Shown: piece after piece, positions 6,146 to 16,263 of the stretch
Numbering within the stretch: position 1 is the first letter of the stretch
Layout of the letters: each line of letters opens with the position of its first letter
Source of the DNA: Nitrososphaerota archaeon
GTDB lineage: Archaea > Thermoproteota > Nitrososphaeria > Nitrososphaerales > Nitrosopumilaceae
Length of the DNA stretch: 64,000 bases
Reading direction: 5' to 3'
Assembly: GCA_028867275.1 (NCBI GenBank)
Contig: JAGWGU010000001.1
Location: 1 to 64,000 of the forward strand
The notes under the pieces: generated by a model
Seen by the model: the letters and a program-made list of their open reading frames with translations, nothing else
The model's database searches: none
Told to the model about the DNA's origin: nothing
Made by a program: the position numbers and the translations under genes

Positions 6146-6155
6146 GTTATATATT
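6146..6155 (+). promoter_or_regulatory. TATA box of the cyclase operon
   Basis: GTTATATATT is centred about 30 bp upstream of ATG 6181. This supports 6181 as the true start with a leaderless mRNA, rather than the TTG at 6154. Confidence 0.55.
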
Positions 6156-6180
6156 GAAACTTGAGTTGATTTGGTTTGAG

Positions 6181-7068
6181 ATGTTAGATGATCAAATTGT
6201 GTTTCCATTTGATGTAACAGAGGATAGAGTGAGATTTCAGCCGTCTGTGATAGATGGTGAAAGCGGTTATTACGATACTGTAGTAAGGAAATTTGTGTCC
6301 CGGAGGGTTCTTGATTCACTAATGGATAATTTGGCACCTGAAAATAATTATCACATCACTCCAAACCATGAAAGAGTTACTCAATCGATAAATAGAATTC
6401 GAAGGAACATATCAGCATATCAAAGAAATCTCAGTGATTCTTATGCCCAAACCTTTCTCAAGTATTTATCAAATAGATATCTTAGTTCCAAGCTAGAGAT
6501 TGACCTTGAGGCATCTATTTTATACGTCGACATTGTAGGATCTACAAAGATTTCAGAAAAACTATCATCTGAAGAATTATCTTCACTGATAGGTACCTTT
6601 TCCCAAGAAATGGCTGCTGTAATTTCCAAGAGTGGTGGATTTATACTCAAATATGCTGGTGATGCAGTAATTGCCTATTTTCCTCATCTGGAGGGAAAAG
6701 GAAATATGATTGAAAATGCCATAAGATGCGGTCGTTCCATGAATGTCATTACAGGGTTTGCAATAAATCCTGCTATTCATGACTTTGCCATCCCGCCAAT
6801 ACAAATCAGAGTAGCAATAGACCATGGAAAAAACAAGATTGTGTTTCTCGGATCAGAACCTGACCTGATTGGCCATTCTATTACTATTGCAGCAAAGATG
6901 ATGCCATTTGCAGAACCTGGACAGATAGTCATTGGAGATTCCGCTTACCAAGTAATATCTAAAGAGTTTGCCGTTGAATTTGTAAAATATAGTAACGAAC
7001 CAGATTGGAATTATATTAATCCAGAAACCGGAAAAATATATCCTATTTATACCACCAAAAGTATTTAG
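6181..7068 (+). CDS. Class III nucleotidyl cyclase, catalytic residues partly replaced
   Basis: A 295-residue protein with a cyclase homology domain from about residue 110. The metal-binding aspartates are Asp117 (LYVDIVGST) and Asp161 (YAGDAVIAYF). Lys157 is where adenylyl cyclases select adenine. The transition-state Asn and Arg, expected in a VNxAAR pattern, are replaced (GHSITIAAKM has Thr and Lys). Residues 1-105 have no recognisable domain. The enzyme would make cAMP or a related cyclic nucleotide, but the substitutions may lower or abolish activity. It is followed after 6 bp by a RecA-type ATPase gene in the same operon. Confidence 0.75.
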   Translation: MLDDQIVFPFDVTEDRVRFQPSVIDGESGYYDTVVRKFVSRRVLDSLMDNLAPENNYHITPNHERVTQSINRIRRNISAYQRNLSDSYAQTFLKYLSNRYLSSKLEIDLEASILYVDIVGSTKISEKLSSEELSSLIGTFSQEMAAVISKSGGFILKYAGDAVIAYFPHLEGKGNMIENAIRCGRSMNVITGFAINPAIHDFAIPPIQIRVAIDHGKNKIVFLGSEPDLIGHSITIAAKMMPFAEPGQIVIGDSAYQVISKEFAVEFVKYSNEPDWNYINPETGKIYPIYTTKSI

Positions 7069-7074
7069 CTGATT

Positions 7075-8484
7075 GTGTCACAAAATAATAAGAAATTCGG
7101 CTTGCCAGATCTTGAACAGTTTGTTAGAATAGGCAATAGATCGCTTCTGGTCAAAGGACGTTCTGGAACGGGTAAAGAGACTCTTTGCTTTGAGCTTGTA
7201 GGAAATAATGTAAAAGAGTATAGTGTCGTATTCATCACTCGTAATCAGACTGATAAAATCCTATACAGGAGATTTCCTTGGATTAAGGATTTTGTTTCAT
7301 CTGGTAACATATTTGAGATAGTCATGCAAGATGCTGTAATGAATGAGCCTTCCTATGCTCTATCTGCAATTGTAAACACCATATCTAATTCATCAAAGAA
7401 AGTATCCGATCCTTTCCTTTCATCAGAAGACCAAAAGAAGCCTTTCATAATACTGGATGTTTGGGATTCAGTTTCAAGGGAAATGAATCCAATAGATAGA
7501 ATGAGAGCAGAAAAATTACTTACCTCCTTAGCCGAAAAATATGATGGTTTCATAATCTTCCTTACTGAGCAAACAGATACTGCGTCTTTGGAATATCTTG
7601 TTGATGGAGTCATAGAGACTTCGCAACAATACTATAAGACATACAGAATTAGAGAAATTAGTTTAGAAAAATTAAAAGGAGTTCCTATCATACGGCCTAA
7701 GGTTCCGTTCACACTTCAGAATGGAAGGTTTCTGGCATTTTCTCGTCTTAATCATGAAATACAAAAAAAATCCAAGTATGTTCCCATCAAAAACTTGGAA
7801 AATAGGTTTTCAACGGGAAACGCTAATCTTGATTTAAAACTTTTTGGAGGTTTTAAGAAGGGAGCAGTTATTGGTATAGAAATTGACAGGGAAGTGGATA
7901 GATTCGCTCTTGTCCCTTTCCTATCTCCGTTAACATTGAATTTTATTGCACAAGATAATCCAGTCCTAATTTCTTCCTCTGCCGATCAGGATGTTGATGC
8001 AATTGTAAATTACTTGTCTCCCTATGTAGAACCCGAAAAATTGAAAAACTTGAAAATATTTGGCCATGGTTTTGGTGAGAACTTGGAGTATTTAGTGGAG
8101 AGACAAGAAATGGATTTTGAATCTTCTTACAGCAAGTGGATCAAGACCTATAGCTTGCTAAAGTCCCACAAAAAACCACTATTGATGACAATTGATTACA
8201 GTTTTGCAGAGTTGGCATACCCTTCCCAAGAAAAACTTGTTCTAAAATCCATGATAGAAAATTCAAGGAATGTCAGACACAACAAGGATTTGATGATAAT
8301 TGTTTCAAGACCAGGATTTGAATCTCTTGAGATAATGAAAAGTGTGTGTGATTTACATTTTAGAATTTTTGATCACGAAGGAACCACATTTATGGCTGCT
8401 ATAAAACCACAGATATTTTTGTGTAATGTGCAATCAAGCTTTCAGGAAGGGTATCCGCAATTAATTTTGGAAGATTCTGTCTAG
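7075..8484 (+). CDS. KaiC/GvpD-like double RecA-fold ATPase
   Basis: A 469-residue protein starting at GTG. Residues 1-200 form a RecA/KaiC-like domain with Walker A GRSGTGKETL (about 29-38) and a Walker B strand KPFIILDVWDS. Residues 240-460 begin like a second KaiC unit (RFSTGNANLDLKLFGGF), but the expected P-loop is replaced by GAVIGIEIDREVD, so this half is degenerate. Relatives are KaiC-like signalling ATPases and the gas-vesicle regulator GvpD. Tight linkage to a class III cyclase suggests the two proteins act in one signalling pathway. The output is unknown; no DNA-binding domain was seen. Confidence 0.7.
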   Translation: MSQNNKKFGLPDLEQFVRIGNRSLLVKGRSGTGKETLCFELVGNNVKEYSVVFITRNQTDKILYRRFPWIKDFVSSGNIFEIVMQDAVMNEPSYALSAIVNTISNSSKKVSDPFLSSEDQKKPFIILDVWDSVSREMNPIDRMRAEKLLTSLAEKYDGFIIFLTEQTDTASLEYLVDGVIETSQQYYKTYRIREISLEKLKGVPIIRPKVPFTLQNGRFLAFSRLNHEIQKKSKYVPIKNLENRFSTGNANLDLKLFGGFKKGAVIGIEIDREVDRFALVPFLSPLTLNFIAQDNPVLISSSADQDVDAIVNYLSPYVEPEKLKNLKIFGHGFGENLEYLVERQEMDFESSYSKWIKTYSLLKSHKKPLLMTIDYSFAELAYPSQEKLVLKSMIENSRNVRHNKDLMIIVSRPGFESLEIMKSVCDLHFRIFDHEGTTFMAAIKPQIFLCNVQSSFQEGYPQLILEDSV

Positions 8485-9146: not shown

Positions 9147-9215
9147 GGAAATCAGAACACAGTTGATTACAGTGGAGACACATTCGCTAAATACTTTTTT
9201 GTGCTCTATATCATC

Positions 9216-10637
9216 ATGAATACAAATCAAGAATTAGAAAAATTGGCAGTTACAGCAGAAGATCTTCACGCAGATCTCAAAAGTGAAAAACCCCTCCTAG
9301 TATTTGACCTTAGACTGAAAGAATATTTCACACATGAACACATAGAAGGTTCAGTTCACGCAGTTTGCGATTCACGTGCAAAAGAGACCATAATGCCAAG
9401 AATCCCAAAAGGAGTAAAAATCGTATTAATTGATGAAGATGGAACCATGTCTGCTGAAACAGCAGGTATGATGGTATCATACGGATTGGATGCACATTTT
9501 CTAAGAGGTGGAATCAAAAGCTGGAACAAAAACCTTGTCAGAAAAGACACTCATACAATAATTTCTCCTGAAGAACTATGGTCCAAGATAAAGAAAAAAG
9601 AGGGTGATCTGGTTCTAGTGGATGTAAGACAACCTGATGAATTTTCAGATTTTAAAATTCAAGGCAGCATAAACATCCCACTTTCAGAATTATTCAACAA
9701 AGAATCTCTTAACAAGATACCCAAAGGCAAACAGGTAGTTACTATCTGTCCCCATGGAAATAGATCAATGGTGGCTGCATTTGCCTTGGCAAGAAACGGA
9801 ATAGATGCATTGTCTCTTGCAGGAGGTCTTGCAGGTTGGGGGCAAGTTCTAAACCCACGGATCATAACAAGAGAAAAAGTCACTATTTTACAAGTAGAGA
9901 AAATTGGAAAGGGTTGTCTTTCATATATCGTAGGCTCAAATGGAGAAGCTATAGTAATTGATCCAGTATATCCAGCAGAGAAATATGTAGAGTTTGCAAG
10001 AGACGAAGGATTACATATTGTCAAAGTCATTGATACCCACCAACATGCAGATCATGTTTCTGCAGCACGTGATCTTGCCAAACTTACAAACTCTAAACTT
10101 TACATGAGCAGATACGAGCAATACGATTTTGAAAGCAATAGGATTGGAGATGGAGATATCATCAATGTAAGCAATTCAAAGATAAGAACAATCCATACTC
10201 CTGGGCATACGGGAGGAAGTTTGTCTTATCTCTTGGATGAAAAGTATGTCTTCACTGGGGATGTTCTATTTGTGGAAGGAATAGGAAGACCTGATTTGAG
10301 AAATAAAGCAAAAGAGTTTGCAAATGACCTGTATGAGACACTTCACAACAAACTGCTTACTTTACCAAGTGAGACAATGGTCCTTCCTGCTCATCACGAC
10401 GAGCGAACCCTCTCTAAAAATGGTACCTATTACACTAGTATCAAAGAGGCAAAGAATCTGTCGATATTGGGATTATTGCATGATGCCTTTGTGGAGAAAG
10501 TGGTTGATACGACACTTCCAAAACCGATGAATTACGAAAAAATTATTCAAATAAACAAGTCGTCTCAGCCAGTTCCGACCTCCGATGTTGCAAATTTGGA
10601 GATAGGTCCAAACAGGTGTGCAGTATCTTCTGCCTAA
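9216..10637 (+). CDS. Rhodanese-rhodanese-MBL protein, persulfide dioxygenase-like
   Basis: A 473-residue protein with three domains. The first rhodanese domain (about 10-110) has no cysteine in its active loop (DEDGTMSAETAG), so it is probably inactive. The second (about 115-215) has the catalytic Cys in TICPHGNRSM. Residues 220-430 form a metallo-beta-lactamase domain with DTHQHADHVSAA, HTPGHTGGS, TGDVLFVEGIGRPDL and LPAHHDERT, the ETHE1-like set. It likely handles persulfide or glutathione-like sulfane sulfur, moving or oxidising it. The TauE-type exporter 17 bp downstream would remove the sulfite product. Confidence 0.85.
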   Translation: MNTNQELEKLAVTAEDLHADLKSEKPLLVFDLRLKEYFTHEHIEGSVHAVCDSRAKETIMPRIPKGVKIVLIDEDGTMSAETAGMMVSYGLDAHFLRGGIKSWNKNLVRKDTHTIISPEELWSKIKKKEGDLVLVDVRQPDEFSDFKIQGSINIPLSELFNKESLNKIPKGKQVVTICPHGNRSMVAAFALARNGIDALSLAGGLAGWGQVLNPRIITREKVTILQVEKIGKGCLSYIVGSNGEAIVIDPVYPAEKYVEFARDEGLHIVKVIDTHQHADHVSAARDLAKLTNSKLYMSRYEQYDFESNRIGDGDIINVSNSKIRTIHTPGHTGGSLSYLLDEKYVFTGDVLFVEGIGRPDLRNKAKEFANDLYETLHNKLLTLPSETMVLPAHHDERTLSKNGTYYTSIKEAKNLSILGLLHDAFVEKVVDTTLPKPMNYEKIIQINKSSQPVPTSDVANLEIGPNRCAVSSA

Positions 10638-10654
10638 ATTCTGGCGAAAAGTAA

Positions 10655-11491
10655 ATGGAACCAGTATTATTTTTCTCTCTCAATTTTCTAGACATATCGC
10701 AAATTCCAGCTAGTCTTCATCTTGCACCACTGATGATCTTTCTTTCTCTGGTATCTGGCATTGTAGTAGGATTCAGTCTTGGCTTGATTGGAGGTGGAGG
10801 TTCAATACTTGCTGTTCCACTTCTAGTTTATGTTATTGGTGTTGAACCACATGTTGCACTTGGAACATCAGCACTTTCTGTAGCTACAAATGCTTTGACT
10901 AGTTTAATACACCATAAGAAAGTTGGACATGTGAAAATCAAGGAAGGTTTGATATTTGCACTTCCTGGAGTTGTTGGTGCATTAATTGGGGTCCAAATTG
11001 GTTTACTTACTCCATCAAAACATCTTCTATTCTTGTTTGGTTTATTCATAATAGTCGTGGCAATTATGATGTTGAGAAGAAAACCTATGACTCTATCAAA
11101 TGAAACACATCATAACCACGGAACATCTCTTATACACAAGAATAGACTAATCATCACAGGTTTTGCAGTAGGGGCAACAGCTGGATATTTTGGCATAGGA
11201 GGAGGATTTTTGATTGCCCCTGCATTGATGTACGCTGCAAGTCTAAACATAATAGATGCCATTGGGACTTCCCTATTGCCTGTAAGTGCATTTGGTCTTA
11301 CTACTGCAATAAGATATTCCATTGAAGGACAGATTCAATGGCTTGTTTCAATTCTTTTCATTATTGGTGGCATAGGTGGAGGATTTGTTGGGACCAAATT
11401 ATCGACAAAGATTCATAGAGAGAAACTTGTCAAAATATTCTCAATTCTTTTAATTTTTGTAGCGTTGTTTATTATTGTGAAAACCATATGA
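10655..11491 (+). CDS. TauE/SafE-type sulfite/anion exporter
   Basis: A 278-residue membrane protein with about eight helices. It carries the two family repeats: LGLIGGGGSILAVPLLVYVIG near residue 45 and GYFGIGGGFLIAPALMY near 180, with HVALGTSA and IDAIGTS matching between halves. A His-rich cytoplasmic loop (THHNHGT) links the halves. The family exports sulfite, sulfoacetate or similar anions. It starts 17 bp after the rhodanese/MBL gene and is surely its operon partner, which supports a sulfite substrate. N-terminal residues 1-25 are an extra, mildly hydrophobic stretch. Confidence 0.85.
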   Translation: MEPVLFFSLNFLDISQIPASLHLAPLMIFLSLVSGIVVGFSLGLIGGGGSILAVPLLVYVIGVEPHVALGTSALSVATNALTSLIHHKKVGHVKIKEGLIFALPGVVGALIGVQIGLLTPSKHLLFLFGLFIIVVAIMMLRRKPMTLSNETHHNHGTSLIHKNRLIITGFAVGATAGYFGIGGGFLIAPALMYAASLNIIDAIGTSLLPVSAFGLTTAIRYSIEGQIQWLVSILFIIGGIGGGFVGTKLSTKIHREKLVKIFSILLIFVALFIIVKTI

Positions 11492-14103: not shown

Positions 14104-14235
14104 ATGTGGCAAACCAAATTCCTTCTTTTTCGAATCCTTACAGTGACTATATTTTCAATTATTTCCTTTATGATGTATTATATTGAGAATCATGGTAAAA
14201 TAGAGACCTACGAACAACTAATCAAGTTCAATTAA
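14104..14235 (+). CDS. Small single-helix membrane protein, 43 residues
   Basis: ATG 14104 to TAA 14235. The first 27 residues form one hydrophobic helix (FRILTVTIFSIISFMMYYI), followed by a short charged tail (ENHGKIETYEQLIKF). It overlaps the end of the CBS-domain gene on the other strand by 18 bp. Possibly a real microprotein; no family recognised. Confidence 0.4.
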   Translation: MWQTKFLLFRILTVTIFSIISFMMYYIENHGKIETYEQLIKFN

Positions 14236-14766
14236 CTTTTTAATCATATTTTTCTGAATTTTGATGTCACGGACTGAATAATTTTTACAAAATCCGATTT
14301 CTGGCATGGATGAGAACATGGCAAGATCTCTAGCAGTAACTAAACCGACAACCTTGTCTGCCTCTACTACTGGAAGATGACGTATATTGTATTTTCTCAT
14401 GATGTATTCTGCTTCTTCAACAGTTTGATGTGGGTTGATACTTATCAATGGTCTTGATGCCAGAAAACTGAGAATTAGATTTCTAAGCGGTATGTTAAGA
14501 CCAACAACCGAACATACAATATCCCTCTCGGTGATCATGCCAAAGAGTTTGCCATATGCTGTTATTATGACGCATTCCACTCCTTTTTTTATCATAAGCA
14601 TAGCCGCATCATACGCAGTTTTGGCATGATCTAGACTCACTACATCTCTTTTCATGATGCATTCTACTGGCATAGTGTCTTGTCCATATGGATCTTCAAG
14701 CATGCTATCTTTCATGAAATCATCTGATATTTCCAGTATGATCTTTGGACTTTCTTGCATCATCAT
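14218..14766 (-). CDS. Two-CBS-domain protein
   Basis: A 182-residue protein with two CBS motifs: VECIMKRDVVSLDHAKTA to GMITERDIV (about 33-92) and LISINPHQTVEEA to VGLVTARDLA (about 103-160). The pair should form one Bateman module that binds an adenine nucleotide. There is no attached enzyme or channel domain, so it probably acts as a free-standing regulator. N-terminal residues 1-30 are acidic. Compare the four-CBS protein at 56473-57333. No operon partner is evident. Confidence 0.85.
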   Translation of the reverse strand: MMMQESPKIILEISDDFMKDSMLEDPYGQDTMPVECIMKRDVVSLDHAKTAYDAAMLMIKKGVECVIITAYGKLFGMITERDIVCSVVGLNIPLRNLILSFLASRPLISINPHQTVEEAEYIMRKYNIRHLPVVEADKVVGLVTARDLAMFSSMPEIGFCKNYSVRDIKIQKNMIKKLIELD

Positions 14767-14797: not shown

Positions 14798-14950
14798 TTA
14801 GTCCTGTTTAGGTTTTTCTTGTAATTCAATTTCTAACATGTTGCCATGTACAACTTCAAAGCTATTGATTGTAATGTGATTTCGATTTTAGACTTTTACC
14901 CTGATCACTATGCCGACTGCGTTATCATGTGTATCTTTTAATATTAATTG
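14798..14950 (-). pseudogene. Possible broken small gene with one in-frame stop
   Basis: One minus-strand frame reads LKDTHDNAVGIVIRVKV, a stop codon, then NRNHITINSFEVVHGNMLEI and a further KPKQD before TAA at 14798. Both halves look protein-like and together would make a small beta-rich protein, but no standard start precedes the first half. It could be a decayed gene or chance; confidence is low. Confidence 0.25.
14938..14945 (+). promoter_or_regulatory. TATA box of the H-NOX gene
   Basis: TTTAATAT lies about 25 bp before the GTG at 14967, indicating a leaderless transcript and supporting GTG as start. It overlaps the upstream edge of the possible broken ORF on the other strand. Confidence 0.5.
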
Positions 14951-14966
14951 ATTGAAGATATGATCT

Positions 14967-15494
14967 GTGCATAAACTAATTTTTGTTAATTTGCAACAAT
15001 TTGCAGGATCAGAAGAAAAATGGCAGGAATGGCTCTCAAAAGCAAATCTTTCAGATGTCAGTGTTTATGTGGATACACCTACAGATTTGCAAGCAAAGCA
15101 ACTTCTCTTAACCGCTGCCAAATTGAGTCATTTATCTCTGAACCAATTTCTCCGAAATTTTGGAATGTTTGTAGCACCTCGCCTTATCTCGCAATTCAGT
15201 CATTATATCGATAAAACCTGGGATGTGTTGGACTTTTTGGAGCATACTGAAGAATATATTCACAAAGAGGTTCGAAACCAAATTCGTGGTGCCAATCCTC
15301 CCACTCTACGAGTGTCACGGCTTGACAAAGACAACGTTATGATTCGCTATAGTTCTTCTTTAAAGATGTGTCACTTTGCAGAAGGGCTGGTAGAGTCTGC
15401 AGCCACTTTTTACAAGCAAAAAGTACTCATAACTCAACCAAAGTGTATGCTCAATGGAAATGCCGAATGTGAGATATTGGTGACAAGAGTATGA
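14967..15494 (+). CDS. H-NOX (haem-NO/O2-binding) domain protein
   Basis: A 175-residue stand-alone protein aligning along its whole length with H-NOX domains: LIFVNLQQFAGSEEKWQEWL at the start, FLRNFGMFVAPRLI in the helical part, then the proximal haem ligand His99 (YIHKEVRNQ), followed after 12 residues by Pro112, as in soluble guanylate cyclase. The haem-propionate motif YxSxR is changed: Tyr128 and Ser130 are kept but Arg132 is Leu. In bacteria H-NOX senses NO or O2 and controls kinases or cyclases. Starts at GTG after a TATA box. Candidate partners are the cyclase at 6181 and a redox membrane protein at 18853. A V4R-like ending (CMLNGNAECEI) is also present. Confidence 0.75.
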   Translation: MHKLIFVNLQQFAGSEEKWQEWLSKANLSDVSVYVDTPTDLQAKQLLLTAAKLSHLSLNQFLRNFGMFVAPRLISQFSHYIDKTWDVLDFLEHTEEYIHKEVRNQIRGANPPTLRVSRLDKDNVMIRYSSSLKMCHFAEGLVESAATFYKQKVLITQPKCMLNGNAECEILVTRV

Positions 15495-15636
15495 ATTATT
15501 GGTTTTTTCATAGATTTTATTGATATTAAAATAATGAATATTTGAATTATCAAGTTGATAGAAAAGGCTTGAGTGGTTTTGTGGTAATTTCGATAAACAT
15601 TTGATCAAACTTCTATCTTAAATAATTCCTTGACGT

Positions 15637-16263
15637 ATGGATGATATGCAAGGTCATGCGGTGTTGCTTGCATTGATTTTATTGATTACTCCATTATTAA
15701 TGATGTCAAGCCAGATTGCTGTATTTGGAGACACCGGTGGTCAACTCAAGGGAAATAATATTGATCTTACCATCTCCCCCTTTCCTATTGATGTGAGCAA
15801 ATCAAACAACGTCACGCTTTCTTTCACGCCCCATGCTGACCAAAAGGCATTTCTTGGCAGTTCAATCACTCCAAACAAGATTGACCATCTTGACTATCTA
15901 GTTATAATTTCACAAAATGGCAAAGAAGTGTTTAACAAGCAAATGCATACACATAGTGGAAATCTGATACTGGAATTTACTGGTGGGTCGGGCTCGGTTG
16001 GTGTCACTGGAGGTCAGTCAGATCCAAATAACACCACTACTGGACCATATTATGTCAGCGGGCCAGTATTTACTGGATCTGGAAATTATGAAATATCTGC
16101 ATCGGTAGTAGGAATTGAATTCAATCCACTTCCTAATCCTTTGGGGGACAAGTTTACTGTACAGGCTGTTCCAGAATTTGGCAGTATGGCAACTATTGTC
16201 CTTGTAACATCGATTTTTGGAATACTGGTCATCACATCTAAAGCAAGATTTGGAACGCTCTGA
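15637..16263 (+). CDS. Secreted PEFG-tailed protein
   Basis: A 208-residue protein with a signal peptide (about 1-31), a beta-rich body and a PEFG tail at 179-182, followed by a hydrophobic helix (MATIVLVTSIFGILVI) and SKAR. The body has KSNNVTLSFTP, DHLDYLVIISQNGKEVFNKQ and HTHSGN. This resembles extracellular beta-sandwich domains with conserved histidines that may bind a metal. Such proteins are anchored or processed at the archaeal cell surface. No enzymatic signature was seen. It is transcribed towards the DoxX-like gene on the other strand. Confidence 0.7.
   Translation: MDDMQGHAVLLALILLITPLLMMSSQIAVFGDTGGQLKGNNIDLTISPFPIDVSKSNNVTLSFTPHADQKAFLGSSITPNKIDHLDYLVIISQNGKEVFNKQMHTHSGNLILEFTGGSGSVGVTGGQSDPNNTTTGPYYVSGPVFTGSGNYEISASVVGIEFNPLPNPLGDKFTVQAVPEFGSMATIVLVTSIFGILVITSKARFGTL

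Follow-up and report, generated by a model that had tools for sequence, protein, structure and literature searches.

The window, a stretch of 64,000 nucleotides, comes from a Ca. Nitrosotalea-type thaumarchaeon; Nitrosotalea are ammonia-oxidising archaea of acid soils. It carries a gene with a GTG start codon that encodes a protein of 175 amino acids (Table 1), has the same GC content as the window and lies opposite a frame that is interrupted by stops. The protein matches the Pfam family HNOB (PF07700) at 87 bits (E=1.8e-24, residues 14-156), against a curated cut-off of 25.5 bits, and its two orthologues reach 83 bits. Its best sequence match in the PDB, the H-NOX protein of S. oneidensis (E=2.5e-13), aligns over almost the full length and pairs His99 with His103 and Leu132 with the Arg of the YxSxR motif. 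A profile built from nine relatives matched 29 distinct PDB sequences, each of which is an H-NOX or sGC-beta protein as judged from entry names and fold-search titles. For an AlphaFold model made from three input sequences (pLDDT 75, pTM 0.74), every one of the 45 best PDB fold matches was likewise an H-NOX or sGC-beta structure, with TM scores up to 0.77. The HNOB score and the fold matches bear out the original prediction of a stand-alone H-NOX protein. A better match to V4R, which that prediction had named as the competing outcome, did not appear: V4R scored 29.2 bits, below its cut-off of 31 bits and over the C-terminal 41 residues only, and we reject this identity given the HNOB score and the fold. 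From the sequence and the modelled fold, we conclude that the product is a genuine variant of the H-NOX family that a small number of Nitrosotalea genomes carry.

Table 1. Features of the window at and around the H-NOX gene (G000, the window's own genome; G003, G014 and G021, other genomes of the genus)
Feature	Position	Strand	Remarks
Class III nucleotidyl cyclase-like protein	6154..7068	+	in G021 the orthologue follows H-NOX after 259 bp on the same strand; weak candidate as partner
KaiC/GvpD-like ATPase	7075..8484	+	paired with the cyclase in six genus genomes; in G014 another ORF intervenes
Double-rhodanese/metallo-beta-lactamase protein, then TauE-like permease	9201..11491	+	
Two-CBS-domain protein	14218..14766	-	divergent from H-NOX; neighbour common to G003 (75% identity)
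TATA-like element CTTTTAATATTA	14927..14945	+	~30 bp upstream of the start codon; same place in 3/3 orthologues; putative function
H-NOX gene	14967..15494	+	
T-run, terminator-like	15495..15508	+	directly after the stop codon; conserved in three species; putative function
PEFG-CTERM-like surface protein	15637..16263	+	downstream of H-NOX; full-length only in G000 and G003
Multi-pass membrane protein, 507 aa	18802..20325	+	four invariant histidines (88, 256, 258, 411)

Among the three orthologues dN/dS is 0.10-0.18, indicating strong purifying selection, and the start codon closely follows the TATA-like element in all of them. Together with the conserved TATA box, start region and T-run, this ratio identifies a live gene, and we therefore reject a pseudogene or a chance ORF. 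Because the same three signals are shared by all three genomes, the sequence suggests a leaderless, single-gene transcript. Phage cargo was also rejected, since no match was found among phages.

A conserved operon with either flanking gene was rejected, as the PEFG-CTERM gene recurs only in G003, the CBS gene is transcribed divergently and the H-NOX gene carries signals of its own. A functional link between the CBS protein and H-NOX is possible. Farther along the window, the 507-residue membrane protein has no match in Pfam, NCBIfam or the PDB; full-length relatives occur in just three other genomes of 61, and a fragment is present in G021. We rejected it as an NO reductase because it lacks a database match, has only four invariant histidines and is missing from G003. 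The rhodanese/metallo-beta-lactamase protein and its TauE-like neighbour suggest sulfur handling, and G003 has a related pair close to its H-NOX gene.

The H-NOX gene is single-copy in the window's genome (1.70 Mb, 96% complete). Two orthologues, one 85% and one 79% identical, are encoded by other genomes of the genus, namely G003 and G021; the public contigs that bear them are named Ca. Nitrosotalea sp. Martin2 and Thaumarchaeota archaeon clean277. Searches of 34 further congeners, some with incomplete genomes, gave no orthologue, and a scan of the genome collection with back-translated peptides returned nothing beyond the two close orthologues. Because H-NOX occurs in 3 of the 37 genus genomes searched (G000 included), and HNOB, across the phylum, in 3 of 398 genomes, we regard it as an accessory gene, outside core ammonia oxidation. 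The host had been described as an ammonia oxidiser, and this description holds in part: amoA and amoC are present in G003 and G021, but both genes and the surrounding 7.4-kb region are missing from G000, a metagenome-assembled genome, at its 96% completeness. In G003 this region forms a separate small contig, and a binning gap is therefore the likely reason for its absence from G000.

His99 and Pro112 lie 13 residues apart, the canonical spacing, as had been claimed, and are invariant in all three orthologues, as are Pro111, Tyr128, Ser130 and Leu132. The loss of His99 in orthologues that would have spoken against the original prediction did not occur. His99, Pro112, Tyr128, Ser130, Gly66 and Gly140 are also identical in all 14 outside H-NOX sequences that we aligned, which were drawn from plasmid records and PDB chains. 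Of 20 haem-pocket positions picked on the basis of H-NOX structures, 19 proved invariant among the three orthologues, versus 73% of all positions.

A complete YxSxR motif is typical of haem-binding members, and the family profile does not demand it. In the Nitrosotalea protein the motif is incomplete, with Tyr128 and Ser130 present and Leu132 in place of Arg, just as first read; since the Arg is absent, we file the protein as an H-NOX variant. The position is Leu in all three Nitrosotalea proteins, Arg in 13 of the 14 outside sequences and Asn in one, which, on this alignment, marks the Arg-to-Leu change as real, fixed and lineage-specific. The plasmid-borne H-NOX of Pseudooceanicola algae (WP_119840394; L077 1501-2043) resembles it in lacking the Arg (Asn) and in having a basic residue (Arg) directly after. 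Unlike the Nitrosotalea protein, however, it is alphaproteobacterial, has no zinc cysteines and adjoins an ATP-binding protein, and its loss of Arg is an independent change. A second fixed oddity of the Nitrosotalea proteins is Lys3, where all other H-NOX sequences aligned have Gly3. Residue 133, directly past the lost Arg, is basic in all three orthologues (Lys, Arg, Arg), and a basic residue here is also common among H-NOX proteins that retain the Arg. Lys/Arg133 and Lys3 could partly replace the lost charge; modelling of human H-NOX places the N-terminus and residues of the YxSxR motif at the haem propionates (PMC6387030). With no propionate Arg in any orthologue and with Gly3 changed, haem affinity may be low.

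On the distal side, the Nitrosotalea proteins have two short loop deletions relative to other H-NOX proteins. The O2-binding triad, Tyr140/Trp9/Asn74 (Tt numbering), is missing; the equivalent residues are Phe137, Leu9 and Val/Thr69, and Phe137 matches the Phe that S. woodyi H-NOX has at the position of Tyr140. Selectivity for NO is predicted from the absence of this triad.

The alignment also shows a second candidate input site. Cys135, Cys160, Cys168 and Gln157 are invariant in the three orthologues, which have no other cysteine in common, and align with the zinc ligands Cys139/Cys164/Cys172/His161 of S. oneidensis H-NOX. The protein therefore has the Cys3-His/Gln ligand set of zinc-type H-NOX proteins, the zinc site being predicted from the alignment. 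In Vibrio H-NOX, too, the fourth zinc ligand is Gln (PMC7108781). The original reading had the family, His99 and the Arg-to-Leu change right but overlooked this Cys3-Gln site, as well as Lys3, the basic residue at 133 and the rarity of the gene. S. oneidensis H-NOX (SO2144; PDB 2kii, 4u9b), which is ~24% identical, is likewise a stand-alone protein with the proximal His, Pro and YxS and with its three zinc cysteines at matching positions, but it differs in having the YxSxR Arg, Gly3 and His161 as the fourth zinc ligand, and it works with an H-NOX-associated histidine kinase. The Cys3 plus Gln/His motif signals on oxidation in V. cholerae and Caulobacter crescentus: haem-free V. cholerae H-NOX is switched when the zinc-site cysteines are oxidised (PMC7108781), and Caulobacter H-NOX is activated via cysteine oxidation, not by NO (PMC12329717). 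By analogy with this cysteine switching, haem-independent or dual input is a serious possibility in the Nitrosotalea protein. The V. cholerae and Caulobacter proteins act on a histidine kinase (adjoining in Caulobacter), whereas the Nitrosotalea protein has no such neighbour; neither a histidine kinase nor a cyclic-di-GMP enzyme adjoins the gene among the ORFs scanned.

Taken as a soluble, single-domain sensor that binds haem via His99, responds to NO, receives a second input through a zinc-thiol site and acts on a partner in trans, the protein is accounted for with moderate probability. Haem b would be bound through His99, probably with a looser grip than usual, as the propionate clamp has no Arg and would be offset only in part by Lys/Arg133 and perhaps Lys3. 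Without the distal Tyr/Trp/Asn triad, the response would be to NO and not to O2, while the zinc-thiol site would serve as a second input responsive to oxidants or NOx. Either input would shift the two subdomains and so alter binding to a partner protein encoded by another gene. Such a protein would sense the nitrosative/oxidative state of an acid-soil organism that produces NO and nitrite. Besides the possibly low haem affinity and the haem-free moth domain described below, several observations count against this reading: the usual H-NOX partners are neither fused nor adjacent, neighbourhoods vary by species, and very few genomes of the genus have the gene. A search for the haem b synthase AhbD gave radical-SAM matches only, all below threshold.

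We considered three other ways to read the protein. It may be a haem-free zinc/thiol redox sensor, in which haem binding is lost or marginal and only oxidation or nitrosation at Cys135/160/168-Gln157 signals. All orthologues have lost the propionate Arg, yet in each of them the three cysteines and Gln157 are kept and no further cysteine is shared, and the oxidation responses of the haem-free V. cholerae protein (PMC7108781) and of Caulobacter H-NOX, which NO does not activate (PMC12329717), support such a mechanism. His99, Pro112, Tyr128, Ser130 and most pocket positions nevertheless are still invariant under purifying selection, which is not expected had haem binding been abandoned and therefore counts against a sensor of redox state alone; we consider it possible but unlikely.

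The second alternative concerns the cyclase/KaiC pair. In G021 the gene order, all on one strand, is H-NOX, a 259-bp gap, the class III cyclase and then the KaiC/GvpD-like ATPase; the orthologous cyclase of the window lies 7.9 kb from H-NOX, a distance that uniform placement would give ~1% of the time. H-NOX might therefore regulate this cyclase in trans as part of a two-piece archaeal counterpart of soluble guanylate cyclase, a proposal that both linkages favour and that we nonetheless find improbable. The linkage is seen in two related species and is thus non-independent, the pair is present in four congeners where no H-NOX was detected (two of these genomes are 96-97% complete) but absent from G003, which has H-NOX, and H-NOX has promoter-like and terminator-like signals of its own. 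The functions of the class III cyclase residues (metal Asp, substrate Lys/Asp, transition-state Asn/Arg) are established. This cyclase retains both metal Asp residues and the substrate-recognition Lys and Asp, but belongs to a subfamily in which the usual transition-state Asn and Arg are Thr and Lys, as found in five aligned orthologues; this, too, argues against the proposal. Eight matches to the class III cyclase domain occur in the window's genome, although archaeal class III cyclases have been described as few (PMC8646023). An H-NOX/cyclase operon was rejected, as adjacency is found in G021 only and the pair occurs elsewhere without H-NOX. The link between H-NOX and the cyclase is suggestive at most, and we give little credence to a two-piece NO-to-cyclic-nucleotide pathway in which an H-NOX with a relaxed clamp would act in trans on the KaiC/GvpD-paired cyclase of an NO-making archaeon.

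Finally, a pseudo-H-NOX whose pocket holds a ligand other than haem, or a purely structural partner domain like sGC alpha, would fit the lost Arg, the changed Gly3, the two distal-loop deletions and the precedent of sGC alpha for haem-free H-NOX domains, but is very improbable given that the pocket, His99 included, is otherwise kept, whereas human sGC alpha lacks the His (PMC8196705). The likeness to sGC alpha extends to the fold and, in the moth protein, to an imperfect propionate motif; the differences are that sGC alpha is haem-free, is fused to PAS and cyclase domains and has a pocket-filling N-terminal extension, which the Nitrosotalea protein lacks. The moth alpha H-NOX domain is without YxSxR and haem-free, and its structures blame that extension (PMC8196705).

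The best match outside Nitrosotalea in the plasmid collection is an H-NOX protein of Natrinema salinisoli (WP_226007972; 30.7% identity, E=2e-21), encoded on plasmid NZ_CP084470.1 (L052 6001-6597) near PAS-domain histidine kinases. Like the Nitrosotalea proteins it is archaeal and has the three cysteines; unlike them it keeps the Arg and Gly3, has Glu at the fourth zinc position and has PAS histidine kinases nearby. In a tree of 17 sequences, the Nitrosotalea proteins group with those of Natrinema, Bacteroidota and Nostoc (97/98 support), apart from the proteobacterial H-NOX proteins; sampling in this tree is thin and its Nostoc branch is long.

Assignment to the family is routine, since the Natrinema protein is already automatically annotated as haem-NO-binding. 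The novelty lies in the group of organisms, in the fixation of Leu for Arg and in the combination of that change with an intact zinc site. The literature that we searched contained no description of an H-NOX protein from Thaumarchaeota or ammonia-oxidising archaea, none of a haloarchaeal H-NOX and none of an NO-sensing protein of ammonia-oxidising archaea. Among archaea, H-NOX proteins are thus seen in two separate groups, represented by Nitrosotalea and by a haloarchaeon. For the family, the Nitrosotalea protein is a natural case in which to ask whether haem retention and NO signalling require the YxSxR Arg, and whether a zinc-thiol site can signal by itself. NO is regarded as an intermediate or a messenger of archaeal ammonia oxidation, and this H-NOX is a concrete, expressible candidate for an NO sensor of ammonia-oxidising archaea that may report NO, oxidative stress or both.
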